NCBI GenBank assembly: GCA_031277165.1 | Contig: JAISLT010000013.1 | Coordinates: forward strand, 1-41,350 | Source of the DNA: Spirochaetaceae bacterium | Lineage (GTDB): Bacteria > Spirochaetota > Spirochaetia > Treponematales > Breznakiellaceae | Length of the DNA stretch: 41,350 bases | Reading direction: 5' to 3' | Part shown: positions 5,102-41,350 of the stretch, piece after piece | Position numbering within the stretch: the stretch's first letter is position 1 | Layout: each line of letters begins with the position of its first letter | The notes under the pieces: model-generated | Databases searched by the model: none | The model's input: the letters and a program-made list of their open reading frames with translations, nothing else | Told to the model about the DNA's origin: nothing | Program-made: the position numbers and the translations under genes

Positions 5102-5107
5102 TTCTTC

Positions 5108-5293
5108 TTACCATTCTTTCAATATTTCCAGATTTTCTTTTTCTTTCTCTCTTCCTGATACATATTCGCTGAAGGTATAACCTCTTAAAAGAAAATCACT
5201 TGTCTGTCCGGCATTGTGAGGCAAAAATTGCTTTAGCTCATCATGCTCCTGTTTATATTTTAGATATTCTTTGGCCTTTTCAGATAAACCCAT
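5108..5293 (-). CDS. Small uncharacterised protein, first gene of a two-gene unit
   Basis: A small charged protein of about 61 residues (MGLSEKAKEYLKYKQEHDE to LEILKEW). The ATG at 5293 is chosen over the one at 5299 because AGGGGAGGAG sits at a better distance. TATACT at 5317-5322 on the minus strand could be a -10 box with a very short leader. The protein is predicted helical, with no signal peptide and no recognised motif. Its tight coupling to the 248-residue membrane-anchored protein downstream suggests the two act together, perhaps as a toxin-antitoxin or small regulatory pair. That is only a guess from gene order and size. Confidence 0.55.
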   Translation of the reverse strand: MGLSEKAKEYLKYKQEHDELKQFLPHNAGQTSDFLLRGYTFSEYVSGREKEKENLEILKEW

Positions 5294-5490
5294 GATCATC
5301 TCTCCTCCCCTTTATAGTATAGGTTAAATCACTATTAACCTTCATCTCCAACTTCCGCCCGCCTTCTTCCTCTCACTGTATGTTACTCGGTTCTTTGCGC
5401 TGTCAGTGTTGCCCAGTCCCATATCTGTTCCTCCCTTTGTCTGGGACAAGAGTACCAGAGTTTCTGTGGCCTATTCAAGGTGTGCCCGTT

Positions 5491-5712
5491 TTAATTCCTC
5501 TCCCGATGAACACCCCATATAATTCCAGGAGCCTGTCGCACTTCGTGGATTTTTTGCATATTCATGCAAAAAATCCCGGTTATCGGGCTCCGTTGGCAGT
5601 TTGCAGAGGATCGCAGGAAACCAGAAACAGGCAGGAAGAATCCCCAGGGGCGGGTATTCATAGTACCCCCATCGGAATTGGGGGAGATAAGCTTCGCCCT
5701 TTTTACAGCCAC
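5491..5712 (-). pseudogene. 5' remnant of a further lipoprotein gene copy
   Basis: Begins like copies 1 and 3 (GTG 5712, AVKRAKLISPNSDGGTMNTR). The similarity decays after about 20 further codons (PWGFFLPVSGFLRSS) and no lipobox is formed. At about 5610 the sequence passes directly into a palindromic repeat, and the open frame ends at 5491. Everything after the signal-peptide region is missing. Promoter and ribosome-binding site are retained, so a short RNA or peptide could still be produced. Confidence 0.7.
5527..5610 (+). repeat. Palindromic dispersed repeat, copy 1
   Basis: Contains AGGAGCCTGTCGCACTTCG followed by a perfect 13-base inverted repeat (5547-5559 and 5564-5576, arm GGATTTTTTGCAT, loop ATTC). 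CGGTTATCGGGC and GGCAGTTTGC come next. A closely matching copy lies at 19950-20092 in the trpD-trpC gap. It joins the remnant lipoprotein gene directly, so it may mark a recombination point. Confidence 0.75.
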
Positions 5713-5738
5713 CGGACAGCTCCTTTTGTGTATGTTCC

Positions 5739-5767
5739 TGTATACACCCCCGGCGGGATTTTGTCAA
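5739..5767 (-). promoter_or_regulatory. Orphan copy of the lipoprotein promoter
   Basis: TTGACA (5762-5767), a 17-base spacer with the same CCCGCCGGGGG core, and TATACA (5739-5744) on the minus strand. It reads into the truncated 5' remnant and then toward the two small genes ending at 4355. Confidence 0.6.
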
Positions 5768-5899
5768 GACGGTATCGAACACAGCCAAACCAACAATTCT
5801 CGGACTTTTTGCATGAAAATTTTCTAACCGGAGAATTGCTGCTTATGAAAAATACTGCCGAAACGTGACTCTGCCTCACATCGAATAATTACTTACATT

Positions 5900-7330: not shown

Positions 7331-7332
7331 GG

Positions 7333-9654: not shown

Positions 9655-9675
9655 CGGACAGCTCCTTTTTAAGCC

Positions 9676-9704
9676 CTTATATACCCCCGGCGGGGTTTTG
9701 TCAA
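9676..9704 (-). promoter_or_regulatory. Sigma-70 promoter with palindromic spacer, lipoprotein copy 3
   Basis: Minus strand TTGACA (9699-9704), 17-base spacer, TATAAG (9676-9681). The spacer core CCCCGCCGGGGG is shared with copies 1 and 4. Confidence 0.7.
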
Positions 9705-9743
9705 GACCTGCTTAGACAGCGGATATGAACGCCGCTTTTCGGA

Positions 9744-24000: not shown

Positions 24001-24659
24001 GTACATTCCTTCCACCGGCGGCATATTTCTTCCCGCTGGATTTTTTCAAAGGCGGTAAAATCCAAGGGCCGGGAAATGGGACTGTGGTACAATATGGGCA
24101 GAACAAACAGTTCCTCCGCCGTACCCCGCAGTTTTTTTTCGGCAATAAGCCGCTGCAGGGAAGGATTATCCCGTTTGTCCAGCACAAAACGCAGGGCCAG
24201 GGATCGGGCCATATCCCGCACCTGCAGATCGTCGCTTTTAAAATCCGGACTGATGCCGAACCGGGGGCAGATCGTCCGGGCCGCGGAGGCGCAGAACGAG
24301 TCCAGGGTTACTATCCGGGCCTTGTAAAAGTTTTCCACCGCCTCCCGGGCATTAGCGGCCATGGCCGGGGGGATGCTTCCCGGCGGACCTGGGTTCCGGG
24401 CGCACTCGGACAGCAGCCGGTAGATCCGTCTGTACATTTCGTTGGCCGCCTTGTTGGTAAAGGTAATGGTAAGAATTTCCTCAGGTTTGCAGCGGCCCGT
24501 CATAATAAGCCAGGCATACCGGGCCGCCAGCACCCTGGTTTTGCCGGAACCGGCCCCGGCGCTGACCACCACATTACTAAGGGTCGTGGCCGCGGCCTTC
24601 TGCTCGTTGTCCAGCTCCCCGATAAAGGGCAGGGCCTCTTCTGCCGTTTTAGGATCCAT
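21072..24659 (-). CDS. addA: AddA-like helicase-nuclease (RecBCD-type recombination)
   Basis: A 1195-residue UvrD-superfamily 1A helicase fused to a RecB-type nuclease. Motif I is SAGAGSGKTRVL (residues 33-44) and Walker B is IDEFQDNN. Further motifs are GDEKQSIYRFRGAD, LSRNYRSHP, HRCKGLEFPLVF and VAMTRAECELYL. The C-terminal PD-(D/E)XK nuclease has GKIDLLF and VDFKTDRE, followed by QMALYKRA. AddA with AddB resects double-strand breaks and loads RecA. Its ATG overlaps the 3' end of the AddB-like gene by 11 bases, so the subunits are translationally coupled. It converges with trpC, with 19 bases between the genes. Confidence 0.9.
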   Translation of the reverse strand: MDPKTAEEALPFIGELDNEQKAAATTLSNVVVSAGAGSGKTRVLAARYAWLIMTGRCKPEEILTITFTNKAANEMYRRIYRLLSECARNPGPPGSIPPAMAANAREAVENFYKARIVTLDSFCASAARTICPRFGISPDFKSDDLQVRDMARSLALRFVLDKRDNPSLQRLIAEKKLRGTAEELFVLPILYHSPISRPLDFTAFEKIQREEICRRWKECTRRLGEIAGELRRHREALGRAPQEELRSILSSIPAPPNIEGLFGGEDREALFRCFTCLAKLKALGIRKIKNETEPYTILRENLGEFKGTLYPRMEALAGHALQWDIVRSVFPLIEEYQELLNRKKRETGILTFNDIAHLAVDGLSLYPGIRQLYKDSLKALMIDEFQDNNSLQRDLVNLLAEKKERTETGVPAKGQLEPGRVFYVGDEKQSIYRFRGADVSVFHGLAGETGSSLSLSRNYRSHPMLIRGFNFIFGGRRSEDDPNPGQGVFLHKTPADYEALYHWVKPGDEKGPPEEAAPGGERRLHFAFFDEGRLAETNGPPQPEDYEALYIARKIKTLVLEKAPVFDRDEKKQRPCRYGDFAVLQRSYTRQHTLERALKLFAVPFNADRPAALFKDAPVNDLWTFLKLLVYPGDRIAYGSLLRSPFVRLSEDAFTLCMLGDAPVFDEALDAKLPPQDRERYQEARRCYRELLEEQQDLPVSSLLTKLWYEYGYRHEALWSLPSQVYLDLYDLVFEQARTIEAQGKGLVEFLDYLEDLALGKEKPGDSILPAGEEGGVRLMSIHRCKGLEFPLVFLYGCGHREDSSLDRGLTLFSRRWGVSLRLPQTEELPEAEDYFYLEEKEDHKRKTLAELRRLLYVAMTRAECELYLTAAIPKQNKAEREQLDPQAFDNDDDFIIARREQYRTREDLESISFLQLLPALHREDPLYTVESISSYSPQELRSIVKDLGWEPEDASSMEEETRKILGEYETIPGFPPYYPVVQTIAASTLHHLRNPVFPAAGQAKPALDELLKRTGLAERDFGTIVHSFIESRFKGGPQRIPRRFSAAIEDKEALTSLAEEAGIMTDRFFNSALGRKALDAPFKKTEYPVLTAVTLPSAEKAPGADTVTVLGKIDLLFEWDPGIYIVDFKTDREEDISRHLGQMALYKRAVEDIFKKPAECRLFYLRNGREADLSKEITAINPEELAAQALGRSS

Positions 24660-27492
24660 GGGCGGCCCCCTGTATATCCGCGGGGGCCGCCGGCGGACGG
24701 AACAAAACCTTCCGTGGATTAAGGGAATAGAGGGAACGGCAAAGGGTCTTAAAATCGCAGCCTGCGCAGGTTTTAAGCAGCACCCGGGGAAGCCCCTGAA
24801 GGGAACCGGGGTTCCCCTGGGGAATAAAGTTCAGCCGGGAAAGGGCCGTATCAAAGATCCTCACCGCCAAGTCCAGGGCCTCCATGGAAGGTTCGTATTG
24901 ATCCCTGGTACAAAGGTCCCGCTTTCCCTCCAGTCCGCCCATGACGGGAACTATCTCGTGCCGGTTAATAATAATAAAAAAGGCCCGGTCTACCCTGCGG
25001 CCCGTTTTTTCTTCGTAGAGCCTAATGTACATGGGGATTTGAAAATCCTCGATCCCCGGTTCATCCGGGTCCCCGGCGGCGCTTTTTCTGCTTTCCGGTT
25101 TAGTTGGGGCGGTGTTTGTTTTGTAGTCAATTATCATCGGCTCCCCCCGGGACGAAAGGGATACCCGGTCTATCCTTCCGATCAGGCGGAGCGGGCCCCT
25201 GACGGATTCGTAGGTCTGTTCCAGGTCCTCTACCTCAAAGCCGGAAAAATAAGCCGCCTCGGTTTTTAAAAGATCCCGCAGCCGCCGGTTCACCGCCTCT
25301 CCCAGGGGAAGGAGCAGGGGATACACCAGGGGACCCCTAAGGGTATTGTCGCTCCGCAGCACCTCCCCGGTTAGTTCCTCTATCCAGGCGCCGTATGTTT
25401 CCAGCCTGTTCCCGGAAAAGTACCGGTCCTGTTCTTTAATCCGGGTAAAAAGACGGCGGAGTATTTCGTGGTAGATAAGCCCCCGGGATTCATCGTCCAG
25501 CAGGGCCGCATCTTCCTGCCGGGGCCGCAGGCGGAAGATCCGCCGGTACAGCCAGAACAGGGGGCACTTAAAAAATTCCGTAAGATCCGTGGCGGACACG
25601 GACAGTTCCGGGGTTCCGGGGGCTGCGGCAGAGAAGGCCGCGGCGCCGGAACTTTTACTTTGGATCCGTCCCCGCAGCAGCGCGGACACCACCGGGGAAA
25701 GTTCCTGTCCGTTCTGCCCCCCGCCGGAACCCTGGAGCAGGATCCGGCTCCAGCGCTTAAAGCCCCGCCGCTGGAGGGAAAAGAGCCGTTCCGGTTTTTC
25801 CCCCGTTCCCCCCCGCCAGCACCGCTCGGCAATAAACGGATCGGCCCTGCCGGGAAGCTCCGGGGCCGCCGGATCATCCGGGAAATTTCTGTTCAGGGCA
25901 AAGGCGCTGTGGGGTATGGCCCAGCCGGAAAATGTTTTTTCCGAGGCGCTTATTCTGGTACGGCAGGTATAGGTTCCCCAGGGGGCGATGCTGTACAGGG
26001 AAAGAAGGGCCGCCGACATGTCCCGGTCTTCCAGGCCCAGCCGGGCCCGTTTGTCCTGGCGCAGAAAGGGCAGGGGCCGGTGCTGTACCGTTGCCGCCCC
26101 CTGGGATGCGTTAAGTACCAGGTGACACCCAAAGGGGGCCCCCGCGGCAACCCGGTAATCGTAGATGTTTACCCCCCCCGGAGTATCCTGGGCATACACA
26201 TAGTTTTTATCCCGCAGGCAGGAAACATAAAATCCAAAGGGATCCGGATCGGCCAGATCGGGGAATTCCGCCTCTATCTCGATCAGCGCCGACAGTTCCT
26301 CTATACAACGGCCCAGGACCGCATTGTTTTTAGCGCTGCATTTTTCCATGGCCAGCAGCCGCCTAAAGGCAAAGTACCGTCCTTCGATCTCCCTAAAGCT
26401 TTTTGCCCCGGCCATGGCGGAAAGGGCCCGTTTTAATTCCCCATAGTATCCGGCAAGTTCCCTGTGGGGACGCCGGTGGAATCCTTCTTCCCAGGGATCG
26501 GCCAGCCGGTGCCGGTCCCTAAAGGCAGAGACGCAGTGGTTTTCCAGCCCAAAGTCCACCAGGGCCCTGTTTTTTGCCGGATCCTTCCAGGGTATGGCGC
26601 CGTTTAAAAGCAGAGGTTTAAGGGAGTCGAAGGAAAAAAGAGAGGATATACATTCGCCGATAAGGGAAAAGATCCTCCCCAGGGGATAGGTCCCCAGGCT
26701 TTTACCGGACCGGAGGGAGCAGGGTATGTCGTAGAGTTCCAGTTCCCGGAACACATAGGGGGCCATGGCGGCAATCCCCGGCAGGCTTAGGGCCATGTCT
26801 TCGTAGGGAAGCCCCTCCTGATCGTGGAGCCGCCGCAGCTCCGCCGCGGCGGTCCGCAGTTCTGTCCGGGCGGAATCAAAGAAAACCAGTTCCGCCGCCG
26901 CGCCGGGGACCGGATAAAGGGAGATTCCCCCGGATTGGAACAGATCCTGGTATTCGGCAAAGTCGTCCAGGGTTTCGGGAAAAAAGATTATGTACCTTCC
27001 CTCGTGGCTGGGGGCCTTTTCCCAGGAAGGTTCAAAGAGGCCGTGGCTTTCCAGGAAGGTTCCGTACTTGTCCTTTAAGATCCGCAGGTCCCGGTCTTCT
27101 TCATCATCCCCCCGGGCAGATCCCTGGAGTTTTTCCCACAGGGCCAGGGAGGGCAGCATGGCGGCGATGGACGAAGCAAAGACAGCCCCCCCCTCGGCAA
27201 AGGAGGGGGGGATCAGGGCCTTAAAAAAAGAGCCGGCGGCATTTTTCCGGACCAGGGAGCGGGCAAAGAGGCTGCGGATTAGGGCCGAAACGGGCCGGCG
27301 GCGGCTGTCCCCAATGCGGACCGCCCTTTCCTTAAACCGGTCCCAGGCGAGAAAACGATCCAGGGCCAGGGAACGGACAGGGCCGTGGAGGCAAATCTTC
27401 CGGGCCCAAAGGGCCGCGGCGGTTTCCGAGGGGAATACAAAGCCCATGTGCTGATCCTCAATATGACTAAGGATCGTTTCAAAGACGGTCAT
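24649..27492 (-). CDS. addB: AddB-like nuclease subunit with Fe-S cysteines
   Basis: A 947-residue partner of AddA. The N-terminal helicase-like region is degenerate and lacks a clear Walker A motif, so it may be structural. The C-terminal nuclease has GRIDRVSL and MIIDYKTNTA. Cysteines consistent with the 4Fe-4S fold of AddB/Cas4 nucleases are seen in FFKCPLFWLYRR upstream of the core and in CAGCDFKTLC near the end. ATG 27492 overlaps the stop of the DUF4230 gene as ATGA, so that start is preferred to an in-frame one 33 bases upstream. Symbol assigned by family and position; sequence conservation in AddB is weak in general. Confidence 0.8.
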   Translation of the reverse strand: MTVFETILSHIEDQHMGFVFPSETAAALWARKICLHGPVRSLALDRFLAWDRFKERAVRIGDSRRRPVSALIRSLFARSLVRKNAAGSFFKALIPPSFAEGGAVFASSIAAMLPSLALWEKLQGSARGDDEEDRDLRILKDKYGTFLESHGLFEPSWEKAPSHEGRYIIFFPETLDDFAEYQDLFQSGGISLYPVPGAAAELVFFDSARTELRTAAAELRRLHDQEGLPYEDMALSLPGIAAMAPYVFRELELYDIPCSLRSGKSLGTYPLGRIFSLIGECISSLFSFDSLKPLLLNGAIPWKDPAKNRALVDFGLENHCVSAFRDRHRLADPWEEGFHRRPHRELAGYYGELKRALSAMAGAKSFREIEGRYFAFRRLLAMEKCSAKNNAVLGRCIEELSALIEIEAEFPDLADPDPFGFYVSCLRDKNYVYAQDTPGGVNIYDYRVAAGAPFGCHLVLNASQGAATVQHRPLPFLRQDKRARLGLEDRDMSAALLSLYSIAPWGTYTCRTRISASEKTFSGWAIPHSAFALNRNFPDDPAAPELPGRADPFIAERCWRGGTGEKPERLFSLQRRGFKRWSRILLQGSGGGQNGQELSPVVSALLRGRIQSKSSGAAAFSAAAPGTPELSVSATDLTEFFKCPLFWLYRRIFRLRPRQEDAALLDDESRGLIYHEILRRLFTRIKEQDRYFSGNRLETYGAWIEELTGEVLRSDNTLRGPLVYPLLLPLGEAVNRRLRDLLKTEAAYFSGFEVEDLEQTYESVRGPLRLIGRIDRVSLSSRGEPMIIDYKTNTAPTKPESRKSAAGDPDEPGIEDFQIPMYIRLYEEKTGRRVDRAFFIIINRHEIVPVMGGLEGKRDLCTRDQYEPSMEALDLAVRIFDTALSRLNFIPQGNPGSLQGLPRVLLKTCAGCDFKTLCRSLYSLNPRKVLFRPPAAPADIQGAAHGS

Positions 27493-28220
27493 TGTGCCGC
27501 GGCGCCCTGAGTTTCCGTCTCCCACATAAACACAATGTCGTAGCTGCCCCGAATTCCCGGCAGATTCCTAAGCAAAGCGCCGAATTGCTGTTCCGCCGAA
27601 TTTCGGGATTCTTCAACCACTTCGCTGGCCATAACCTTTTCTTCCATCTCCCGCTTTTGTTCGGCGGTAACCTTAAAAGCGTCCTGTATTTTTATTTCGT
27701 TAAAGATCGTCTGGGACTGTTCAAATACTTCAATGGACCTGTCGTCAATTTCATGGGACAGGATCTGTACCGGCGGCAGGGTAATCCGAATTACCGGCAG
27801 ACCCCCCTGGACCTGGGTGGTTCCCTGGGGCTGTGCCGCCCCCTGGACCGGCGCTGCACCCTGGGGCTGCGCCGTTCCCGGAACCGGATCCTCCACCCGG
27901 ATTTTGCTTCCGTCGATGCCGAGTTTCATGATCCCATCGTAGGTAAAGATGTACTTCCGGGTGGTAAAGGGAATGGTCCAGCCCCGAATGTCCAGGGAAT
28001 TTATGTCCTTTACCACCGACGTATAATGGTAGGCCAGGCTTGCATATTCCCCTATGGGGAGCACCTCCTTAACCACCGTATGGGCGGATACTTCCGGCTG
28101 TTCCGTTATGATCTTGAATCCGGAAAGGCCCAGGTTCCTGCCCCCCAGTAAAAACCCCACCACCAGGATTAGACCGGCGATAAGGGCAATTAGAACAAGC
28201 ACAAGAATGGTCCGTTTCAT
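27489..28220 (-). CDS. DUF4230 membrane-anchored protein
   Basis: A 243-residue protein with one N-terminal helix (TILVLVLIALIAGLILVVGFLL). The soluble domain matches the DUF4230 pattern: a VLPIGEYASLAYHYTSVV strand region and later IRITLPPVQILSHEID. Function of this family is unknown. Between the two halves of the domain sits a Pro/Gln/Gly-rich insert (about residues 112-139, repeats of the type QPQGAAPVQG), probably a flexible linker. The start ATG 28220 is the first gene of a three-gene unit with addB and addA, linked by ATGA overlap. A functional link to recombination is not known from the family and may be only transcriptional. Confidence 0.8.
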   Translation of the reverse strand: MKRTILVLVLIALIAGLILVVGFLLGGRNLGLSGFKIITEQPEVSAHTVVKEVLPIGEYASLAYHYTSVVKDINSLDIRGWTIPFTTRKYIFTYDGIMKLGIDGSKIRVEDPVPGTAQPQGAAPVQGAAQPQGTTQVQGGLPVIRITLPPVQILSHEIDDRSIEVFEQSQTIFNEIKIQDAFKVTAEQKREMEEKVMASEVVEESRNSAEQQFGALLRNLPGIRGSYDIVFMWETETQGAAAQ

Positions 28221-29645: not shown

Positions 29646-30482
29646 ATGGACTGGGATTTAACGGTATCGTCCAAGCATAAGCTGCTGGAGCTTAATTTAC
29701 GGGAACTGCTCCGGTACCGGGATCTTATTCTTATGTTTTTTGTGCGGGATTTTGCCACGGTCTATAAACAGACCGTGCTGGGTCCCCTGTGGTATATTAT
29801 CAGTCCCCTTTGTTCTACCCTGGTGTACGCCTTCGCCTTTGGTAATATCGCCGGTATCGGAACGGACGGAATACCGGTGCTGTTGTTTTACTACGGCGGC
29901 ACCATGCTCTGGTCGTATTTTTCCAACTGTCTGAACAGCGGGGCGAATATTTTTATTGCCAATGCGGGGGTGTTCGGTAAGGTATATTTTCCCCGGCTTT
30001 CCGTTCCCATCGCCACCACCTTTGGCGCGGTATTTAAGATGCTTATCCAGTTTGCCATGCTTATGGCTTTTTTGGCATATTACCTTGTCACCGGCAGCGC
30101 CGTCCGCCCCTCGGGGTATGCGCTGCTTTTTCCCGTGGTGGTCCTTTGGCTTGGGGCGCTGGGGACGGGGATTGGGATGATCTTTTCCGCCCTTACCACC
30201 AAGTACCGGGACCTGAACCATGTGCTTACCCTGGCCTTGGGCCTGGCCATGTACGTTACCCCGGTGATCTATCCCCTATCCCAGGTGCCGGAACGGTTTT
30301 ATTTCTTCTTCTACATTAATCCTGTCAGCGCCCCCATGGAACTGTTCAGGATATGGTTTTACGGGATAGGCCATGTGCCGCCGGCGATGACAATTAGCAG
30401 CATCGCGGTGACGGTGCTGGCCGTTTTCTTTGGGCTGGTTCTGTTTAGCAGCAACGAGCGTACCTTTATGGACGTTATATAG
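29646..30482 (+). CDS. Polysaccharide ABC exporter, permease (Wzm-type)
   Basis: A 278-residue ABC-2 family permease with six hydrophobic segments. It starts with the typical amphipathic RYRDLILMFFVRDFATVYKQTVLGPLWYIISPL and has the ALTTKYRDLNHVL loop that contacts the ATPase. It exports O-antigen, capsule or similar glycans in an ATP-dependent manner with its partner. The start ATG 29646 follows a weak TAGGG. It is the first gene of the locus, and its stop is directly followed by the ATPase ATG. Length and layout are normal for Wzm or KpsM-like permeases. Confidence 0.9.
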   Translation: MDWDLTVSSKHKLLELNLRELLRYRDLILMFFVRDFATVYKQTVLGPLWYIISPLCSTLVYAFAFGNIAGIGTDGIPVLLFYYGGTMLWSYFSNCLNSGANIFIANAGVFGKVYFPRLSVPIATTFGAVFKMLIQFAMLMAFLAYYLVTGSAVRPSGYALLFPVVVLWLGALGTGIGMIFSALTTKYRDLNHVLTLALGLAMYVTPVIYPLSQVPERFYFFFYINPVSAPMELFRIWFYGIGHVPPAMTISSIAVTVLAVFFGLVLFSSNERTFMDVI

Positions 30483-31277
30483 ATGGCCCTGGCGATAAAG
30501 ATAGAGCACCTTTCCAAGTATTACAAACTTGGGGTTATTAACAACGGCAGGCTCTGGCAGGACCTGCAAAGTTACTGCGCCCGGCTTTTACACCGGGAGG
30601 ACCCGAACAGGAAAATCGGGGAACAGACCGTGTACGACCGGGACGGATTCTGGGCGCTGTCGGACATTAACCTGGAAGTAGGGCAGGGGGACCGGCTGGG
30701 TATTATGGGGCATAACGGTGCGGGAAAATCGACCCTGCTTAAGATCCTCAGCAGGATCACCGTTCCCACACAGGGGTGTTTCCATGTTAAGGGAAGGATT
30801 GTGAGCCTTCTGGAGGTGGGGACCGGTTTTCATGGGGAGCTTACCGGCCGGGAAAACATCTATATGAACGGCGCCATCCTGGGGATGAAGCGCCGGGAAG
30901 TAACCCGCAAGCTCGAGGAGATCGTGGCCTTTAGTGAAATCGATCCCCACCACATTGACACGCCGGTTAAGCGGTATTCCTCGGGCATGTATGTACGGCT
31001 GGGCTTTGCCATTGCCGCCCACCTGGAGTGCGAGATCATGATCGCCGACGAGGTGCTGGCGGTGGGGGATTTGAACTTTCAGCAGAAGGCCACGGGTAAG
31101 ATGAGCGATCTGAGTACCAACCACGGCCGGACCGTGCTGTTTGTAAGCCACAACATCGGGGCGGTGGAAAAGCTGTGCAACAAGGGGCTTATTCTGGAAC
31201 AGGGCAAGGTGCTGCTGGGGCAGTGTCCCGTGGAAGAGGCCGTGGGAAGGTACAAGGAAATACTGGGGATTGCGTAA
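30483..31277 (+). CDS. Polysaccharide ABC exporter, ATPase (Wzt-type)
   Basis: A 264-residue ATPase. Walker A is GHNGAGKST (residues 76-84), the signature YSSGM is at 165-169, Walker B is IMIADE at 185-190, and the switch His is in VSHN. The N-terminal strand MALAIKIEHLSKYYKLG is typical of Wzt/TagH-like proteins. It ends soon after the nucleotide-binding domain and lacks the C-terminal glycan-binding domain of long Wzt proteins, so export is probably not coupled to a terminal modification of the chain. ATG 30483 follows the permease stop without a gap. Confidence 0.92.
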   Translation: MALAIKIEHLSKYYKLGVINNGRLWQDLQSYCARLLHREDPNRKIGEQTVYDRDGFWALSDINLEVGQGDRLGIMGHNGAGKSTLLKILSRITVPTQGCFHVKGRIVSLLEVGTGFHGELTGRENIYMNGAILGMKRREVTRKLEEIVAFSEIDPHHIDTPVKRYSSGMYVRLGFAIAAHLECEIMIADEVLAVGDLNFQQKATGKMSDLSTNHGRTVLFVSHNIGAVEKLCNKGLILEQGKVLLGQCPVEEAVGRYKEILGIA

Positions 31278-31412: not shown

Positions 31413-32528
31413 GTGAAAAGGGACATAAAGGAACTCTTAATAAGACGGTATGTGCAGCTGGTGATAAATCCCCGGGACCGGTTATTGCTGGATCTGGTCT
31501 TTAAGGAGGGGCCCACGCAAACCGGACTGGATACTTTTTTTTCTTCCTGGGATATAGAGCGGGAGGGGGCCCACAAGGCCCTGATGCTTTCATACTTTAT
31601 GAAGATGCACCCCGAACTGGCCTTTCCGGACTATACAAGACCCCGGCTGGAGGGTCTGCTAAATTATTACCGGTTTTATAATATGCAAACCCTGGCGCAT
31701 TTTCCTGGGCTGGGCCGGGCCTTAAACAGGGCGGGAATTCCCATACTGGTGTTTAAGGGCATGGCGATGAAGCTGCTTCGGCCGGAACTGCCCCGTGTTA
31801 TGGAAGATATAGATTTTATTGTACCGGACGAAAGATATGCCGAGGCGGTGCGTATGGCCGAAGACGCCGGGTTTGAACATAAATTGGCCCGGGAGGAGGA
31901 ACATTCCGTAGATTTAATTCACCGGGATAAAAAGTGCTTGATCGATATTCATAGGTGTCCCAACCTAAAGCATGGATTACACATCAGCGCCCAATTATTT
32001 GCCCGGGCAAGAAAAACAAACGCATACGGCGTGGACATGCTTATCCCCTGCGATGAAGACCTGGTGTTTATTACCCTGACAAATTTTCTTAACAATCTTG
32101 TCAATAAAACCAGCATTAAGGGCGTATTATACGGATTATTTGATTATGCCTATTTGGTTAAGGGAAAGGAAGATTTTAACTGGGACATGCTTATTGACAA
32201 TGCCCGCAAAACAAAGACCACCCTTGATATCCGCCTGGCCCTGGAAATAATCGAGCACCTGGTTCCCGGTATTATGCCCCAGGGGTTAAAAAAAACAGCG
32301 TGCTTTGCATCAAAATTATCTTCCCTTTGTACCAGGCTTGTTTACAATGAATATTACTATGACAGGCTTATAGAAAAACGGGTGACCTTTCCCGTTAGAA
32401 GGGTTACCAAGGCCTTTATTAAGGGATGGTTTTATAAAACCATCTATTACCCCATGAAATTAATCCGCGGCATCTATCCGCTACGTAAACTGTTTCTTTT
32501 GATATTCTTGCATAAGGAAGCCCCATGA
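31413..32528 (+). CDS. Nucleotidyltransferase family protein (PF14907-like)
   Basis: A 371-residue protein resembling the uncharacterised nucleotidyltransferase family NTP_transf_5. The core is a predicted Pol-beta-like fold with FKGMAMKLL (residues 114-122) and RVMEDIDFIV, whose EDID acidic pair would bind metal. A third acidic position is likely in DLIHRDKKCLIDIHR. The C-terminal half is helical. GTG 31413 is preferred because AAAGGGAG precedes it; the frame is open to TTG 31329. Members of this family often sit beside HprK-like and PqqD-like genes, in exopolysaccharide or peptide-modification loci. Substrate unknown. ATGA overlap with the next gene. Confidence 0.75.
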   Translation: MKRDIKELLIRRYVQLVINPRDRLLLDLVFKEGPTQTGLDTFFSSWDIEREGAHKALMLSYFMKMHPELAFPDYTRPRLEGLLNYYRFYNMQTLAHFPGLGRALNRAGIPILVFKGMAMKLLRPELPRVMEDIDFIVPDERYAEAVRMAEDAGFEHKLAREEEHSVDLIHRDKKCLIDIHRCPNLKHGLHISAQLFARARKTNAYGVDMLIPCDEDLVFITLTNFLNNLVNKTSIKGVLYGLFDYAYLVKGKEDFNWDMLIDNARKTKTTLDIRLALEIIEHLVPGIMPQGLKKTACFASKLSSLCTRLVYNEYYYDRLIEKRVTFPVRRVTKAFIKGWFYKTIYYPMKLIRGIYPLRKLFLLIFLHKEAP

Positions 32529-33607
32529 GGATAGACAACCCTTCGCCGGAAAAACTTTCCCACTATTTTTCCGTATTGGATAAGAGGCCCCGGGAAATAG
32601 GCGCCGTACAGTGGACCAAATACCTGGACCTGGGAACCCATGTTATCCGGCTTATTAACTATTCCCCGGAATTTACCCCCCATGTGGAAAAACAGCTTGG
32701 GTATGTTTTAAACGATTCGGCGCCCGGACACGACGCCACCCTGGTTATCTGGAAAGACCCCCTGGTCCGGTCCTTGTCCTTAAGGCTTGACCAGGATGTA
32801 TTTAATGATGCGCTGGTCCATAACTATTATGCGGACCTTTTTTTGCAGGTGTTTGCACAGGGCGTATCCGCATGGCTGCCCCTTATTAATGTTGATATTT
32901 GGAGTAATATCCTTACGGCTTTTGATCCCCGGTCCAACACCTACTACTATGCGGCGGAAAACCTTGATCCGGAGGAATTTATAAAGCAGGGGCATATATT
33001 TGTGCAGACCATAGGTAAGATAGTCAGGTCCGCCGCAAGCTCCCTGGTACACGGGGCCGTTGTGGGCCTTAACAACAAGGGCATTTTGTTCTGCGCCCGG
33101 GGCCAAAAGGGAAAATCGACCCTGACCGTGTGCGCCATGATGGACGGCTTTGAGTTTGTATCCGACGATTATCTGGTGCTGTCGAAGGATGAAAGGGGCC
33201 TCTATGCGGATCCTATCTATTCCATTGTTACCCTTTCGCCCCGGATGTACGGCGAGTTGTACGGTACCTTAAAGTGCCGGTTTGTTTCCAACAATGCCCG
33301 GAAGGACAAGTATGTACTTAATATTGCCGATTACCACGGCAGTTTCAGGAAGCACTATCCCATTAGGGTTTGCATGTTTCCGCAGATTACCGGCAGCCCC
33401 GAGCCCAGTATCGTAAAAACCGGCAGGGGCCCCGGGGTGGTGCAGCTTGTCCATTCCACGCTGCAGCAAATGGGCAATTGGCATGATATAGAAACCGCCA
33501 AAAAACTTATGTCCTTTGTGGCCGGATTTGATTTTTATCAAATAAATCTTTGCCAGGATATCTGGAAAAATCTTCGCTGTCTGCGGGATTTTGCGGAAAA
33601 ATTATAA
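32525..33607 (+). CDS. HprK-like serine kinase/phosphorylase homologue
   Basis: A 360-residue protein whose C-terminal half resembles the catalytic domain of HPr kinase. It has HGAVVGLNNKGILFCARGQKG with a P-loop variant (GQKGKST, residues 193-199) after the conserved His176 region, and FVSDDYLVL with the acidic pair at 214-215. The N-terminal half (about 1-150) has no recognised domain. True HprK regulates carbon catabolite control, but such diverged versions in glycan or peptide-modification loci are thought to phosphorylate other targets. The start ATG 32525 overlaps the nucleotidyltransferase stop by four bases, which indicates tight coupling. Confidence 0.7.
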   Translation: MRIDNPSPEKLSHYFSVLDKRPREIGAVQWTKYLDLGTHVIRLINYSPEFTPHVEKQLGYVLNDSAPGHDATLVIWKDPLVRSLSLRLDQDVFNDALVHNYYADLFLQVFAQGVSAWLPLINVDIWSNILTAFDPRSNTYYYAAENLDPEEFIKQGHIFVQTIGKIVRSAASSLVHGAVVGLNNKGILFCARGQKGKSTLTVCAMMDGFEFVSDDYLVLSKDERGLYADPIYSIVTLSPRMYGELYGTLKCRFVSNNARKDKYVLNIADYHGSFRKHYPIRVCMFPQITGSPEPSIVKTGRGPGVVQLVHSTLQQMGNWHDIETAKKLMSFVAGFDFYQINLCQDIWKNLRCLRDFAEKL

Positions 33608-33621
33608 GTACGGAGAGGAAA

Positions 33622-34095
33622 ATGGCTAGTTATGTATTGAACGAAGAACAAATGTTCAGCGATATTGCCGACGGCATCGCCATTGTAATTAACAGCGAAA
33701 CCGGCATCTATTACGGCATGAACAACCTGGGAACCTCGGTATTCGAGAACCTGCTCAACGGCGTTTCGACGGAGAATATTCTTGGGGCGCTTAAAAAACT
33801 AAACGGGGCGCCGGCGGATATGGATGAGCGGCTAAGCAACTTTATAGCTCTTTTGCTGGAGAATGGGATACTTATTAAGGGCGGCGGCGGCGATGCGCCT
33901 GCGGCGATCAGTGCGGAAGCGGCGGCGGCCAATAACTTTGCCCTGGAAGTGCGGGAATATAACGACGCCCAGGAACTGCTTCTGGCCGATCCCATCCACG
34001 AAGTGAAGGAAGATACCGGCTGGCAGCCCGATAAATCGGCGCTGGAAACCGACGAGGAAGTGGTCAAGGCAAAGGAAGATAAGGCTAAAGAATAA
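33622..34095 (+). CDS. PqqD-like protein with conserved-looking acidic tail
   Basis: A 157-residue protein. Residues 1-88 fit the PqqD fold (winged-helix peptide-recognition element): VLNEEQMFSDIADGIAIVINSETGIYYGMNNLGTSVFENL and a helical end. PqqD-like proteins usually bind a peptide substrate for a radical SAM or other modifying enzyme. The rest is a flexible Ala-rich linker and an acidic tail containing NDAQELLLADPIHEVKEDTG (residues 114-133), which looks like a defined short motif rather than filler. The start ATG 33622 has GGAGAGGA upstream. The stop shares one base with the next ATG (TAATG). Confidence 0.75.
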   Translation: MASYVLNEEQMFSDIADGIAIVINSETGIYYGMNNLGTSVFENLLNGVSTENILGALKKLNGAPADMDERLSNFIALLLENGILIKGGGGDAPAAISAEAAAANNFALEVREYNDAQELLLADPIHEVKEDTGWQPDKSALETDEEVVKAKEDKAKE

Positions 34096-36128
34096 TGATC
34101 AAAGTTTCGGTAATTATCCCTGTCTACAACACGGCGCCCTATTTGACTCGATGTCTTGACAGCGTTTGTGATCAAACGCTGACGGACATCGAGATACTCT
34201 GTATTAATGACGGCTCCACCGATAGGTCCCTGGAAATTCTGCGGGACTATGAAGGCAGAGACAGCAGGGTAAGGGTCATTAGCTTTGAGCAAAACAAGGG
34301 CGTTTCTGTAGCCCGCAATACCGGCATTGACGCTGCACAGGGCGAGTATATCGGGTTTGTGGACAGTGATGATTATGTGGATCTGGATTTTTATGAAAAA
34401 CTGTATACGGAAGTAAATGGAAATGGGGTGGAAATTGTAAAGGGGCTTGAGCTAAAGATCATTCACCCCGATGGCAGTATTAGTGTTGATAAACATAATG
34501 ACAAAATAAGAAAGAATAAAATACATTTTTGGACAGAATACACAAGTGCAATATTTAACCGTCAATTTATTCAGAGGAACAATATTTACTTCCCCGAAGG
34601 TTTGTTGGTTGGCGAAGATCCGTGTTTTACTCTAAAAGCGTCAATTCTGTCTAAAAGTATTCGGGTTATTGAAAGTGCCCAATATTATTATGTCAGAAGA
34701 GTAAACAGCTTAAACTCGGACATTTGGAATAAAGAAAAGATTCAGTCATACATAAAATATATAGATTATGTTGCCAATTTTGCGGAAAAAGCCGATCTTT
34801 CTCGAGGTGATTATAAAATCTTGTTTAAATGGCTGCTGGAAGATGCACAAAATACATGTAAAAACAAGGCTGGATCGAATAAAAATTATCAAAATTTATT
34901 TGAGCCGCTGTTTAGAAAATTGAAATGCATGGTTGGAATAGATTTGTTGTTTGATGCAACTATATTTCATGGTATTGAATCAAAAACTGATGCGCGAAGT
35001 GGTATTTTTTTTGTCGCATATAACATTCTAAAACAATTAAGTAAGAATAGTCAAATAAATATAACATTATACTTGGAATATTTTAACGCAGTTCTACGGG
35101 AGGCATGTAAAAAAGATGATCTTTTAAAAAAATTTGATATACTTTGTTTAAAGTATAAATCGTCTGTTAAAAATACCGGGTATATAAAAAATCCAAAATT
35201 TTGCCCCGACAGTTTTGATGCGTATATTAATGTTTCATGTTTTTCTTTGTTGTGCGGCGATGATATGGATCGAATTGTTAAATTTTATGTTTTACATGAT
35301 ACAACGCTATTGTTGTTAGATTATGGTGATGAAGGATGGCGTAAAAATCGAAAGGCATTTTGGAATTTTTACGATGATTCATTAACGAAAAATACATATG
35401 GCTTTTGTGTATCTGAATCCGCAAGGCGCGATTTCCTTCGATTTTTCCCTGTACTTGATCCTGCAAAGATGATTGTAACGCCCATAGCGACGGCCCGTAA
35501 ATTCAAACCAAACAGGGATATTGATAAATTAAATGAAATAAAAATGAAGTATAATATGTCCGCCTTGGATACTTATATATTTTCATTTAATTCATATAAC
35601 TTGCGCAAGGGGTTGATTTTTACCGTTGGATGCTATTTGAAGTTTATCGAAAGACATCGGATTAATAACCTGTGTTTTTTATCGGCCGGCGGTGGAGACG
35701 TTTCGTATTACAAAAAAAAAATAGAACAGAATTATGGGGAGCTTTTTCATAGATATAAGAACAGGATATTCATGATTGGGTATATCGATGATGAAGATCT
35801 TGAGATTCTTTACTCTCATGCGCTTTTTACTAGTTATTTAAGTGAGTACGAAGGTTTTGGCATGCCGCCGCTTGAAGCTATGAGCTGCGGTATTCCGGTA
35901 ATAACATCCAACACAAGCAGTTTGCCAGAAGTTGTCGGAGATGCCGCTGTTACAATTGATCCGTATGACGATGAGGCTTGTATTAAAGCTTTTGAGGATT
36001 TATATTTTGATAATATAATACGAAAAGAGTACATTGCAAAAGGCTTTGTGCGAGCGAAAATTTTTACCTGGGAAAAAACAGTAAATGTAATGGCTGACAA
36101 AATGATGAGAGTGTTAGACACGGTGTAA
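34095..36128 (+). CDS. Two-domain glycosyltransferase (GT2 + GT4 fusion)
   Basis: A 677-residue protein. The N-terminal GT-A domain, family 2, spans about residues 1-230: [21 protein letters not shown], and FVDSDDY with the metal-binding DxDD. The C-terminal GT-B domain, family 4, spans about 285-677, with [20 protein letters not shown] and [11 protein letters not shown], the donor-binding EX7E region. It probably adds two sugars in sequence on a lipid carrier in the cytoplasm. The GT4 half is paralogous to the next gene, with near-identical DNA around the donor-site motif. Base composition falls to AT-rich inside this gene, from about 34.4 kb. Confidence 0.88.
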
Positions 36129-36409: not shown

Positions 36410-37627
36410 ATGATGGATAAATTTAGAATGTTGTTTCAGGCTGATATATTACTGAAGGGGGAAATTAACGAAAATGAGCGAACGGGTATTTACTTTGTTA
36501 CGAAAAACTTGCTTGAGCAATTTAAAAAGGACAAAAGATTTGAGATAACATTAATATTCTTTTTTAATCCGATACCCAATGATGTCTTTGTTAGATTTAA
36601 ACAAAATGAGAAATTTAAAAATTTTCCAACAGTTCGTTTTTACCGAAATTTTGAGGTAAAAGGTATATCAAAGACGATTATTAATCCTATTATAAAGAAT
36701 AGTGATTATGATTTCTGTTTTTCAACAATAGGAGGAAGCCTTCCTGATATACAACTACCGTGTTTTGGTATGTTGCATGATGTCATTCCCTTTTTGTTTG
36801 CTGAATATTACGAAAAATCTGCCCGTCAAGAGGAAAATGATTTTTATCAATGTTCCAAAAAACATTTGAATCGCAATACTTATTATTTTTGTGTATCGAA
36901 TAGTTGTAAAAATGATTATTTGAAATTCTTTTCTGAACAATTAAACCCAAATCATATGATTGTAACACCAATCGCAACAATGCGTTCTTTTGTGTTGCAA
37001 CCTGATATGGGTAAATTGTCGAATTTTTTTAAACGGTATGGGGCAACCAAGATAAAAAGCAATCGGTATATCCTTAGCCTTTCAACTATAGAACCAAGAA
37101 AGAATATTCCTTTTACCATTAGGTGTTTTTCGGAATTTATTGATAAACATCACATAACCGATTTGTTTTTTGTTATTGGTGGAGGAAGTTGGGATTTTAT
37201 ATCCGTAACTATAAAGCAGTCTCTTGATTATGACATAGAAAAAGCATCGGCTACTTGTCGGGACAAAATAATTCGGCTCGGTTATGTTGCAGACGAAGAT
37301 GTAGAAATGCTTTATAGCCATGCCTTAATCTTTACTTTTATTTCAGAATACGAAGGCTTTGGCATGCCTCCACTTGAAGCAATGAGCTGCGGAACTCCGG
37401 TAATAACATCTAATACGAGTAGCTTGCCCGAAGTTGTCGGCGATGCCGCTATTATTATTGATCCGCATGATGCGGAAGCTTGTATTAATGCTTTTGAAAA
37501 TTTATATTTCAATGCCGACTTGCGTGAGGAATACAGTAAGAAAGGCATTAGTCGTGCTAAAATGTTCAGTTGGGAGAAGACTGCCAAGGTAATAACTGAA
37601 AAAATGTTGCAGGTGTATACCAAATAA
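36410..37627 (+). CDS. Family 4 glycosyltransferase
   Basis: A 405-residue single-domain GT-B enzyme that closely parallels the GT4 half of the preceding fusion. It has [45 protein letters not shown] (hinge) and [20 protein letters not shown] with [14 protein letters not shown]. It transfers a sugar from a nucleotide donor, and the acceptor is unknown. Two ATGs are adjacent (36410 and 36413), with TAAGGA upstream. It stands after the decayed fragment and probably arose by tandem duplication of the fusion gene's second half. Confidence 0.88.
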
Positions 37628-37645
37628 ATAACGAGGGTGTTTAAT

Positions 37646-38539
37646 ATGCTAACGAAAAATGTTATGAACAGGTATCACGATTGGCTTGAAGATCATAAAT
37701 TAATCGGGGGGGGGGGTGATGAATTGTTTCTCCGTTTATTTAGTATTCAAATTGATACTTGTTACAAACCCTTTGTAGTTGAATACAATACAACAACGGA
37801 GAAATTAGAAAGAATTTTTGCACATATAGAAGGGGAGTGGGAAAAATATGGCAAAGACGAGACGTATTGGTCTGTTTTGACAGATCCAAATTTCTTAAAA
37901 AAGGAACTAAATGATGTTGCTTTGGAAAATTTTTACAATTCCGGAAAAAATGACTTAAATCGAATTGAAATAACTTTACAAAGATGCGGGGAATGGGACA
38001 CTTTGCCAAAAGATTCTTGTTTGGAATATGGATGTGGTGTGGGACGGGTTACGTTTCAATTATCTTCCATCTTTAACTCTGTTTCTGGTATTGATATTTC
38101 GCCGGGACATATTGCGTTAGCCGGAAACCGTCTAAAAGATCTTGGTATAAAGAATGTATCTTTACGCACGATACATAAATTGAAAGATTTGCAATCCTTT
38201 GATAAATATAATTTTATTTATAGCGTAATTGTATTACAGCACAATCCGCCGCCGATAATAGCCTGTATTCTAAGGTTCTTTTTTTCGCATCTTAAAACAA
38301 ATGGGATAGTCATGTTTCAGATACCTGTTAATATAAAGGGCTATAAATTTACGGTCGACGAATACCTTGCCAAAATCCATGCGGTAAAAGGCATGGAGAT
38401 GCATATGTTGCCACAGAATGAAATCTTAAGAATTGCCAGAGAAAATGATTGTTGTTTACTTGAAGTTGCTAATGATGCCTGCATAGGCAGCTATTCTACA
38501 TCCATATCTCAAACTTTTCTTTTCAAGAAAATACTTTGA
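37646..38539 (+). CDS. Class I SAM-dependent methyltransferase with G11 tract
   Basis: A 297-residue enzyme. The nucleotide-binding loop is LEYGCGVGR (residues 126-134), followed by [13 protein letters not shown] and [16 protein letters not shown], typical Rossmann methyltransferase motifs. In this locus it probably methylates a sugar and may cap or decorate the glycan. Codons 21-24 (GGGG) are encoded by a run of 11 G. Loss or gain of one base would shift the frame near the start and switch the enzyme off. In this sequence the frame is on. The start ATG 37646 has GAGGG upstream; GTG 37637 is also possible. Its stop overlaps the next gene. Confidence 0.8.
37706..37716 (+). repeat. Intragenic G11 homopolymer
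   Basis: Eleven consecutive G inside the methyltransferase gene at codons 21-24. It is of a length known to be slippage-prone in bacterial phase-variable genes. Confidence 0.95.
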
Positions 38540-39333
38540 ATAATATAGAAAATACATCGCCAAAGTTTTCCATCATCACAGTTTGCCTTAACGATCCGAA
38601 TTTAGAACAAACCTGCGAAAGCATAGTTAATCAGTCTTTTCAGGATTTTGAATGGATTGTAATTGACGGTGGTTCGGATCGGCAAACGCAGGATATATTT
38701 GAAAAATATAAATATCGCATGAACTATTTTGTTTCTGAAAAAGACAACGGTATATATGATGCAATGAACAAGGGCATTATACAGGCCCATGGTGAATGGT
38801 TTAATTTTATGAACGCAGGGGACAGATTTTATGACAGCGATATATTGAAATTTGTTGTAGGAAAGATTAACGAAGTTAAAATGGATGATAAACCAGATAT
38901 ATTTTATGGTGATGATATTAGTAAAAAAGAAAATGGAATTTTTGTCAGTGATTTACCCTGTTGCATTGATAAATATTTTATGTATAAGGCAACACTTAGA
39001 CATCAGGCCTCATTTATTGTTGCATCATCTTTCAAAAGAATAGGAATATATGATAGTTCATTAAGGGTTTGTTCTGACTATAAATGGTTTTTATGTGCAC
39101 TTAAGCATGGCCTTGAATTCAGAAAAATTACGGGTTGTCCCTTGGCAATTATGGATGGCAACGGAATTGGATCACAGATGACGCATATTCATCTGGAGGA
39201 ACGCAAGTGTGTCCAAAGAGATTTTTTTTCATCGGATGAATTGCCGGCTTTTGCAGTAAGATTAAGCAAGGAAAAGCGTTTAATTGCTATTAATTTTATT
39301 GCCAGTAAGCGGGCGGAAAATAAAAATCACTAG
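38536..39333 (+). CDS. Family 2 glycosyltransferase
   Basis: A 265-residue GT-A enzyme with FSIITVCLND, IVIDGGSDRQTQDIFEKY, EKDNGIYDAMNKG and the MNAGDRF motif in place of the usual DxD. This pattern is typical of WcaE/WcaA-like family 2 enzymes in exopolysaccharide loci. The start is TTG 38536, overlapping the methyltransferase stop as TTGA; no other good start is present before the first strand. It continues the compact, coupled arrangement of the locus. Confidence 0.82.
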   Translation: MNNIENTSPKFSIITVCLNDPNLEQTCESIVNQSFQDFEWIVIDGGSDRQTQDIFEKYKYRMNYFVSEKDNGIYDAMNKGIIQAHGEWFNFMNAGDRFYDSDILKFVVGKINEVKMDDKPDIFYGDDISKKENGIFVSDLPCCIDKYFMYKATLRHQASFIVASSFKRIGIYDSSLRVCSDYKWFLCALKHGLEFRKITGCPLAIMDGNGIGSQMTHIHLEERKCVQRDFFSSDELPAFAVRLSKEKRLIAINFIASKRAENKNH

Positions 39334-40018
39334 AAATAAACTTGTTTCCATCTTAATTCCTGCGTATAACGCTGAGAAATATATTGCCGAAGCAATAGAT
39401 TCTGTGCTTTCGCAGGATTATCAAAATAAAGAGATAATCGTGATAAATGACGGCAGCACCGATTGCACTTTGAAAATTCTGGAACAATACAAAGGGGTAA
39501 TCAAAGTCATTTCAAAAAAGAATGAAGGTGTAGCCGCCGCTCGTAATACAGGATTGGCGGCGGCGAACGGTGATTATATAGCCTGGCTTGATGCGGATGA
39601 CTATTATTGCGCCGGAAAAATTCCGGCGCAGGTGAAGTATTTGGACGAACACCCTGATGCGAAAATAGTTTTTACAAAATATGAAAATTTTTTTGAAGGC
39701 GAACCAAGCGCGGATGTTCTGATTAGAATTAAACTGGAAAAAAATAACCGCTATTGTCAGCCCACGTCTATGTTTAGACGGGAATTAACCGCCAAAGTAG
39801 GCAATCATGATATTTCTTATACGATTGGAGAAGATATTGACTGGATTTTTCGAGCGAAGATTATGTATAATGTTAATCTTGACCATTACATTGATATTCC
39901 TTATTATCGCCGAAGATTTCATACAAATAATTCAATACTCAATATACAATTGGATAAAAACTATAACAACCGTATTATGATGAAATATCTTAAACAAAAA
40001 AGAGAAATTGGGAAATGA
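39284..40018 (+). CDS. Family 2 glycosyltransferase
   Basis: A 244-residue GT-A enzyme: VSILIPAYNAEKYIAEAIDSV, VINDGSTD, EGVAAARNTGLAAANGDYIAW and LDADDY for metal and donor binding. The start is uncertain. The frame opens with TTG 39284 inside the previous gene, a second TTG lies at 39299, and the conserved fold begins about residue 20. The true start may be a non-standard codon near 39320, after GGCGGAAAA. Downstream, its stop overlaps the next gene as ATGA. Acceptor and sugar unknown. Confidence 0.8.
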   Translation: MLLILLPVSGRKIKITRNKLVSILIPAYNAEKYIAEAIDSVLSQDYQNKEIIVINDGSTDCTLKILEQYKGVIKVISKKNEGVAAARNTGLAAANGDYIAWLDADDYYCAGKIPAQVKYLDEHPDAKIVFTKYENFFEGEPSADVLIRIKLEKNNRYCQPTSMFRRELTAKVGNHDISYTIGEDIDWIFRAKIMYNVNLDHYIDIPYYRRRFHTNNSILNIQLDKNYNNRIMMKYLKQKREIGK

Positions 40019-40668
40019 TCAGTGTTATTATTCCGGTATGGAATGGGGAAAACTATCTTGCAGAAGCTGTAAATAGCGTTAATCGGCAAAATTCAGATAC
40101 TGAAATCATTGTTGTGGATGATGGATCAACTGATAATACAGCAAAATTGGCCAAGTCCTTTGGCTGCCGAATTGTTTCGATACCACACAAGGGTTCATCC
40201 GTGGCGCGTAATGTAGGGTTAACAGTTGCAAATGGTGATACTATTATGTTTCTTGATCATGATGATGTTTTAACCGAAGGGTCGCTTGATCGTTTGGATA
40301 AATCATTGATCAGTGGCATTGATTTTGTTTCTGCAAAAGTAAGAGATTTCTTATCACCCGAGTTATCAAACAGCGAGAAATATAAATTGGTTCCAAGGAA
40401 GAAGGCATATGGCGGGTTATTAACCGGTGCGTATCTTTTTAGACAATCTGTTTTTGTAACGGTTGGCGGTTTTAATGAAAGACTTATGACTGGAGAATGT
40501 ATCGATTTATTGTTTCGCTGTTCCGATCTAAAATTGAAGGAATTGAGATTGGATTTTATTTCGGCGCATCGACGTTTACACCTTTTTAATAAAGGCCGCA
40601 TTATGCGGACCCAGGAAAATAAAGATTATTCGGCGATTTTAAGAGAAAAAATAAAAAAAGGGGAGTAA
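40015..40668 (+). CDS. Family 2 glycosyltransferase
   Basis: A 217-residue, rather short GT-A enzyme with MISVIIPVWNGENYLAEAVN, VVDDGSTDNTA, GSSVARNVGL and FLDHDDV (a DHDD variant of the DxD motif). TGAYLFRQSVFVTVGGFNE is the usual acceptor-side helix. The C-terminus (RRLHLFNKGRIMRTQ) resembles small glycosyltransferases found in peptide- or glycan-modification loci. The ATG 40015 start overlaps the preceding stop by four bases. The next gene, a radical SAM protein, starts five bases after its stop. Confidence 0.82.
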   Translation: MISVIIPVWNGENYLAEAVNSVNRQNSDTEIIVVDDGSTDNTAKLAKSFGCRIVSIPHKGSSVARNVGLTVANGDTIMFLDHDDVLTEGSLDRLDKSLISGIDFVSAKVRDFLSPELSNSEKYKLVPRKKAYGGLLTGAYLFRQSVFVTVGGFNERLMTGECIDLLFRCSDLKLKELRLDFISAHRRLHLFNKGRIMRTQENKDYSAILREKIKKGE

Positions 40669-40672
40669 ATGT

Positions 40673-41350
40673 ATGACTAAACAGAAATGGGGCTGGTTTA
40701 AGAAGAATAATATCAATGATATAATCCGACATTTTGAATGGTTTAATATGAGGGATATGTTTAATTTTCGTGTATTTGATATGGTTGGACCTAAAATGTT
40801 TAAGTTATATCTAATCATGCGTTTTTTTGTAACCCGTAAGCCATCAATATCTAAACTTGATATTATGAATACTACAAGATGTACTTTGAATTGCCGAGAT
40901 TGTTGTGCTTTTATACCGCATTATAGACCGGAAAATCATGTTAAGCCGATGGGTTTTGAAAATTTTAAAATGAATTTAGATGGATTATTGGCATCAGTAG
41001 ATCTGATTTATATACTTCAATTTGTTGGTGGTGAACCGTTATTGGACAAGGAATTGGATAAAGAGTTGGAATATGCTGTCTCAAAGCATCAGATTCGTCA
41101 TATATTCATAACTACTAACAGCACAATTATGCCGTCACCTTTATTGATAAAATCCTTGAAAAATAAAAAATGTGCGGTACAGTTGTCTAATTATTCTATG
41201 ATTAAAACATCGGTTCCTTTGTTCTATAATCAATGGTTAACTCTTTTGAAAAATAATGAAATACGATATATCACATATAATGAATTTTATTTTTATACTG
41301 TATGGTCTATTCGTGACTGCAATGTGAACCATGATACCCCCCCCCCCCCC
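40673..41350 (+). CDS. Radical SAM protein, 3' end beyond window
   Basis: The first 226 codons of a gene open to the window edge. The iron-sulphur cluster motif CTLNCRDC (Cys70, Cys74, Cys77) follows DIMNTTR, the usual strand before the cluster, and VGGEPLLD (119-126) is the GGE motif binding S-adenosylmethionine. So it is a radical SAM enzyme, active on a glycan, sugar nucleotide or peptide. The ATG 40673 start has GGGGAG upstream; ATG 40669 closes after two codons. The end of the visible frame is a run of C encoding Pro, so the real C-terminus cannot be read. Any auxiliary cluster domain is out of view. Confidence 0.8.
   Translation, partial: MTKQKWGWFKKNNINDIIRHFEWFNMRDMFNFRVFDMVGPKMFKLYLIMRFFVTRKPSISKLDIMNTTRCTLNCRDCCAFIPHYRPENHVKPMGFENFKMNLDGLLASVDLIYILQFVGGEPLLDKELDKELEYAVSKHQIRHIFITTNSTIMPSPLLIKSLKNKKCAVQLSNYSMIKTSVPLFYNQWLTLLKNNEIRYITYNEFYFYTVWSIRDCNVNHDTPPPP
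41337..41350 (+). repeat. C14 (or longer) homopolymer at window edge
   Basis: Fourteen C in a row run to the last base. They lie in the open frame of the radical SAM gene. True length is unknown. The window may stop here because an assembly could not pass the tract. Confidence 0.9.

Follow-up and report, generated by a model that had tools for sequence, protein, structure and literature searches.

The closest described relatives of the locus analyzed here are two kinds of peptide gene clusters. Clusters for linear polyphosphorylated peptides (LPP), with the gene order LppA-K-B-S-D-N, are reported as restricted to Bacillota; LppK phosphorylates Ser3 of LppA (the S3T and S3Y variants are not phosphorylated), LppN was without detectable activity in a heterologous host, and what such enzymes make beside capsule loci is left open (PMC13381572). 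Lasso peptide clusters of the paeninodin/pseudomycoidin type carry the genes A, B1, B2, C, K, N and D. For pseudomycoidin, the C-terminal Ser of the peptide is phosphorylated by PsmK, and PsmN decorates this phosphate with one or two hexoses, although a genuine nucleotidyltransferase activity of PsmN is an alternative (PMC9266682). A further system, the SynChlorMet cassette (ScmC/ScmD, TIGR04249/TIGR04248), likewise pairs HprK-like and PqqD-like proteins. It is accompanied by radical SAM proteins.

In the window, by which we mean the whole analyzed stretch of 41,350 nucleotides from a Spirochaetaceae contig, we find three adjacent genes of these enzyme families. The first (N, 31413..32528, + strand) has a GTG start and encodes a nucleotidyltransferase-fold protein that belongs to PF14907 (NTP_transf_5; score 75.2 bits, cut-off 31.2). 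The second (K, 32525..33607, + strand), the start of which overlaps the stop of N (ATGA), encodes an HprK/PEPCK-fold kinase recognized from conserved motifs and fold matches. The third (B, 33622..34095, + strand) begins with ATG 14 nt after K and ends at 34095, the start of the next glycosyltransferase gene. It encodes a PqqD/RRE-fold protein with a C-terminal tail and has 31 aligned relatives at 43-70% identity. This trio is genuine and translationally coupled, with glycosyltransferases downstream, and its relatives extend RRE/HprK/NTP-transferase chemistry beyond the Bacillota, where lasso and LPP peptides exemplify it, to at least five other bacterial groups.

Comparison with described systems

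The cassette resembles LPP clusters in that a discrete RRE, an HprK-like kinase and an NTP transferase occur together, in its presence in capsular polysaccharide loci and in its patchy horizontal spread. In contrast, the LPP precursor with YxxPxVLxHQxIxFETxxS, the SipW-like peptidase and the MsbA-like exporter do not recur in cassette loci, while the cassette has hosts in other phyla, a tailed B and GT2 glycosyltransferases as core members. No LPP-type precursor with the conserved leader (YxxPxVLxHQ...) was found near the trio in 33 loci, although a distant gene is possible. Neither a SipW-like signal peptidase nor an MsbA-like transporter is among the families matched by at least two of 68 same-strand neighbors, a threshold that leaves room for single cases.

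Paeninodin/pseudomycoidin-type lasso clusters share with the cassette a B1-type RRE fold, an HprK-like K and a nucleotidyltransferase-like N, and their K/N chemistry is the best functional precedent. The cassette differs from them in its tailed RRE and its glycosyltransferase partners, and in that cyclase (C), protease (B2) and precursor were not found: an Asn-synthetase-like cyclase and a B2 protease are absent both from the window proteins scanned and from the families matched by at least two of the 68 neighbors. Precursor, peptidase/cyclase and exporter features were not found where looked for; we regard the cassette as resembling LPP and paeninodin-type clusters in its enzymes and do not file it as a member of either.

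Other relatives are more remote. HprK-related kinases A and B (TIGR04352, TIGR04355) show weak similarity to K over the P-loop and DD motif, with scores of 20-40 bits where the cut-off is 200 (28.3 bits for K against TIGR04352). The SynChlorMet models are matched far below their cut-offs (17.6 against 125 and 16.4 against 100), and radical SAM genes occur in few cassette loci. HPr kinase/phosphorylase shares its C-terminal domain fold and P-loop with K, but its PF07475 model remains below cut-off.

Folds and active sites of the trio

HprK models match K over the P-loop/DD region only and under every curated cut-off (PF07475, 17.2 bits against 33.3; TIGR00679, 16.3 against 240). The AlphaFold model of K (pLDDT 89) matches PEPCK with Z 16 and HprK with Z 13.4-13.6, at 2.5-2.9 Å over residues 170-360, and the model together with the conserved motifs identifies an HprK/PEPCK fold with P-loop and catalytic Asp. 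The motifs H176-G-A, the CARGQxGKSTL P-loop, D214-D215 and NNARKDKY are conserved in 29-31 relatives, with H176, G193/G196-K197-S198 of the P-loop, D214 and D215 invariant. In N, the motifs R-x-M-x-DxD and D-x-H are invariant or nearly so in 25-31 relatives, and the invariant active-site residues are R128, D132, D134, D178 and H180. We call these residues catalytic because the HprK and nucleotidyltransferase folds place them so. K carries a second, fused PqqD domain in 17 loci, and the tail motif described below is absent from that domain.

B matches PF05402 with 24.8 bits (cut-off 23.4). The best folds found by Foldseek for its model are the lasso B1 proteins TbiB1 (TMt 0.81) and FusB1 (TMt 0.86), with E-values of 0.006-0.03 and a probability of 1.00. 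With a profile score over cut-off and an RRE fold, B is classed as an RRE.

Ordinary HPr is not a general substrate of K, because no HPr gene is seen in 9 of the 17 assemblies that carry the trio, in MAGs that may be incomplete; action of the kinase on ordinary HPr, which an earlier note on this DNA had named as a refutation of its reading, does not hold.

Distribution and conservation of the cassette

A scan for B across 84,980 species genomes yielded 32 loci, with hosts among Gastranaerophilales, Alphaproteobacteria and Desulfovibrionaceae as well as a planctomycete, a spirochaete and others; many of the hosts come from gut, rumen or termite-gut samples. Among the 33 loci compared, which were found from B, B is present in 33 and K in 31, N lies beside them in most, and the usual order is N-K-B. 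The spacing from the end of N to K is between -68 and +20 bp in 26 loci, and that from the end of K to B between -26 and +44 bp in 28.

The cassette is patchily distributed. B was detected in 21 of 192 sampled genomes from the order of a Gastranaerophilales host, in 5 of 142 from one alphaproteobacterial order, in 5 of 349 from a Pseudomonadota sample and in 3 of 149 from the Desulfovibrio family, where one match covers residues 1-44 only. K occurs in 2 of 291 genomes of the spirochaete order and in 2 of 392 genomes of a phylum sample, one of these two being a different system. Another spirochaete locus (L006, G426:C18:17971-21327) has two tandem HprK-like kinases that adjoin an ABC transporter gene. 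We set it aside as a different HprK system, the HprK match belonging to this ABC-transporter locus.

Pairwise distances of N, K and B correlate (mirror-tree r 0.61-0.77, with 0 of 200 permutations as high), and the three proteins co-evolve as a unit. In the joint tree the window trio groups with that of the planctomycete and L007 groups with Desulfovibrio; judging from these groupings, the cassette has crossed phyla. A mobile-element origin was considered and dropped, since the trio had no match on plasmids, in IMG/VR, or in PHROG and defense-library searches. One locus (L021:8820-10471) offers a natural kinase-less version, in which N runs straight into a tailed B, the two genes overlapping without an intervening kinase.

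Genomic neighborhoods

Glycosyltransferases are the main partners of the trio. In the window, B is followed by a GT2 + GT4 fusion (34095..36128, + strand; PF00535, PF00534), the start of which overlaps the stop of B and which is a conserved next gene; most loci have a GT2 immediately after B. Across loci, the GT2 cluster accounts for 93 of 176 same-strand neighbors, and nucleotide-sugar enzymes for many of the others. A small GT2 of 217 aa (40015..40668, + strand) belongs to a trio-linked subfamily, with relatives at 207-262 bits in 16 other loci plus one partial copy, whereas other GT2s of the loci score at most 130. Accessory glycan genes of the window, all on the + strand, are a GT4 (36410-37627), a methyltransferase (37637-38539) and two further GT2s (38536-39333 and 39284-40018).

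Just upstream of the trio lies an ABC exporter pair, Wzm (29646-30482, + strand; PF01061) and Wzt (30483-31277, + strand; PF00005), which match the galactan Wzm and Wzt models below cut-off. PF01061 is absent from the families matched by at least two of the 68 scanned neighbors, and the exporter belongs to the window, not to the conserved set. A radical SAM gene (40673..41350, + strand; PF04055, 31.5 bits) is cut by the contig end. It is accessory as well: radical SAM genes occur in a minority of loci only and were rejected as core members, and a weak match to viperin was taken as general radical SAM similarity.

Two accessory features were observed elsewhere. A DUF1796 papain-like peptidase homologue, possibly an accessory protease, is found near the trio in L013, L024 and L038. 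Additionally, several Gastranaerophilales and alphaproteobacterial glycan loci (e.g. L013, L019, L024, L038) encode a split transketolase pair, accompanied in some loci by aldo/keto reductase and radical SAM genes, a combination that suggests an unusual sugar.

The smallest versions of the cassette consist of N, K, B and GT2 plus one or two genes, and with them the question of what these enzymes make beside capsule loci can be put to a minimal set of genes. In Alphaproteobacteria with small genomes, divergent homologues are arranged as N-K-B-GT2-GT8-X, with overlaps of 1 to 52 bp, among housekeeping genes, and large-genome Pseudomonadota have the order B-K-GT2-GT2-N. Protein X (237 aa; L049:4145-4858, L050:6921-7634, L051:11429-12142), the last gene of the compact alphaproteobacterial cassettes, had no Pfam or NCBIfam match; its C-terminal motif GCWxNP...CPCxRCP resembles a stand-alone SPASM-type domain.

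A precursor peptide encoded locally is not supported. When small ORFs were compared in the 33 loci and six compact cassettes, none was conserved outside overlaps with neighboring genes, and the overlapping genes of the compact cassettes leave no room for one. Likewise, no ORF with [YW]xxPx[LVIFA] was supported near the trio in the 33 loci, although a distant gene is possible.

The earlier note is partly supported. The three families (by profile scores for N and B and by fold matches for K), the coupled or near-coupled starts, the lack of lasso protease and cyclase among scanned window proteins, the kinship with lasso tailoring enzymes and the link to glycan genes all stand, and a trio that recurs in mostly fixed order in dozens of genomes is no chance arrangement of one genome. 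The radical SAM gene is indeed in the window locus, but neither it nor the exporter is a member of the set, and no small precursor is conserved nearby. That note had overlooked the tail of B, glycosyltransferases as core partners and the second PqqD domain fused to K.

The C-terminal tail of B

C-terminal to the PqqD domain of B, and set off from it by a variable linker, is a tail (residues 112-138, 33955..34035, + strand; EYNDAQELLLADPIHEVKEDTGWQPDK) that is near-invariant in the 33 loci. Its consensus is LLLxDPIHEVxx(x)GWxP, and EYNDAQELLLADPIHEVKxxxGWxPxK in the main family. Between subfamilies, identity is 52% in the tail, 25% in the PqqD domain and 13% in the linker, and in 43 of 43 pairs drawn from different subfamilies the tail is more conserved than the domain. 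Q117, L120, D123, P124, H126, V128, G133 and W134 are invariant in a 20-row set, with Q117 not kept in the more distant L055/L057 group added later. The first scan used the patterns IYYGMNN and EYNDAQE, so that conservation of EYNDAQE is partly ascertained, while DPIHEV and GW were never search patterns; the profile that retrieved the divergent homologues covered the tail as well, and their retention of it is partly ascertained too.

Residues 121-140 of the B model have a pLDDT of 53-55, and the segment is predicted to be flexible. The tail occurs once per genome in 15 genomes, in which no free-standing tail peptides were found. It is conserved across phyla, and literature searches, which covered few subscription papers, found no description of a tailed RRE. 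No Ser, Thr or Tyr is invariant across tails. One member, the tail of L057, contains none of these residues at all, which makes a general role as O-linked phosphate acceptor unlikely. A Lys-Trp crosslink introduced by a radical SAM enzyme was also rejected: divergent members have Ser, Asp or Glu in place of Lys129, and radical SAM genes are not conserved.

Possible function of the cassette

We tentatively propose, with somewhat less than even confidence, that N, K, B and at least one GT2 form a horizontally spread cassette that places phosphate and then sugars onto a peptide or protein encoded elsewhere, with B as the hub. This order of chemistry is suggested because of the PsmK/PsmN and LppK precedents. 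The winged-helix PqqD domain of B would bind the substrate in the way that leaders are bound by lasso RREs, and the conserved, flexible tail of B (LLLxDPIHEVxxxGWxP) may be a docking motif for K, N or GT2 that holds the modifiers at the substrate; the L057 tail makes docking likelier than an acceptor role. K would phosphorylate the putative substrate, N may attach the first sugar or a nucleotide to the phosphate placed by K, and the GT2s would extend the sugar begun by N. A distant substrate is at odds with the fact that RiPP precursors usually adjoin their enzymes.

Neither a leader nor a separate precursor would be needed if B is its own substrate, an RRE covalently fused to a core peptide (the tail). 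K, N and the GT2s would then act on B and might assemble a glycan there. The compact cassettes, in which B is the only small protein encoded and no further one would fit, agree with such a role, as do the lack of a conserved small ORF near the trio, the uniqueness of the tail in each genome and the fact that B is more conserved than N. We nevertheless consider it unlikely: LppK accepted Ser only, whereas the tail has no invariant Ser, Thr or Tyr, and core peptides are usually variable whereas the tail is near-invariant.

It is also doubtful, and slightly more so, that the cassette decorates a glycan or glycolipid, adding phosphate or a nucleotidyl-sugar to a polysaccharide while B only regulates or scaffolds the enzymes. 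The abundance of GT2s and nucleotide-sugar enzymes in the loci and the Wzm/Wzt exporter of the window would fit, but the RRE fold binds peptides, the K/N pairs studied act on peptides, and the compact cassettes of reduced genomes lie among housekeeping genes with two glycosyltransferases only.

It is improbable that B is a protein primer, on which K would phosphorylate the invariant His (or Asp) of DPIHEV, N would add the first sugar and the GT2s would grow the glycan; if true, this would be a kind of peptide-primed glycan assembly with RRE and core joined in one protein. A conventional lasso or LPP-type RiPP cluster with a short, variable precursor that was missed or lies far away is very unlikely too, for while paeninodin and LPP clusters use the same three enzyme families and also occupy capsule loci, neither cyclase, B2 protease nor signal peptidase is among the families matched by at least two scanned neighbors, no [YW]xxPx[LVIFA] ORF is supported near the trio, and lasso RRE models are 78-88 positions long and lack the tail.

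The DPIHEV-GWxP tail provides a concrete, mutable handle, and the cassette as a whole ties RRE/HprK/NTP-transferase chemistry to glycosyltransferases as partners.

Genomic context of the window

The contig is authentic, and MAG chimerism was ruled out, since two genomes of the same genus match the flank at 21072-27525 with 78-80% identity. After the counterpart of position ~28.5 kb, both of these genomes have a different locus that starts with a gene for a 646-aa receptor-like protein and contains no glycan island. Judging from this comparison, the glycan locus, from about 29600 to the contig end, is an island.

At the other end of the window (1489-12263, - strand) are tandem paralogues of a large lipoprotein-like protein with the start ...LLWLFLASCDPFTHDPAAFFEEQTG. 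The three paralogues scanned have cadherin-like PF12733 matches, and in the paralogue at 5900-7330 the C-terminal part is replaced by an adenylate/guanylate cyclase domain (PF00211).
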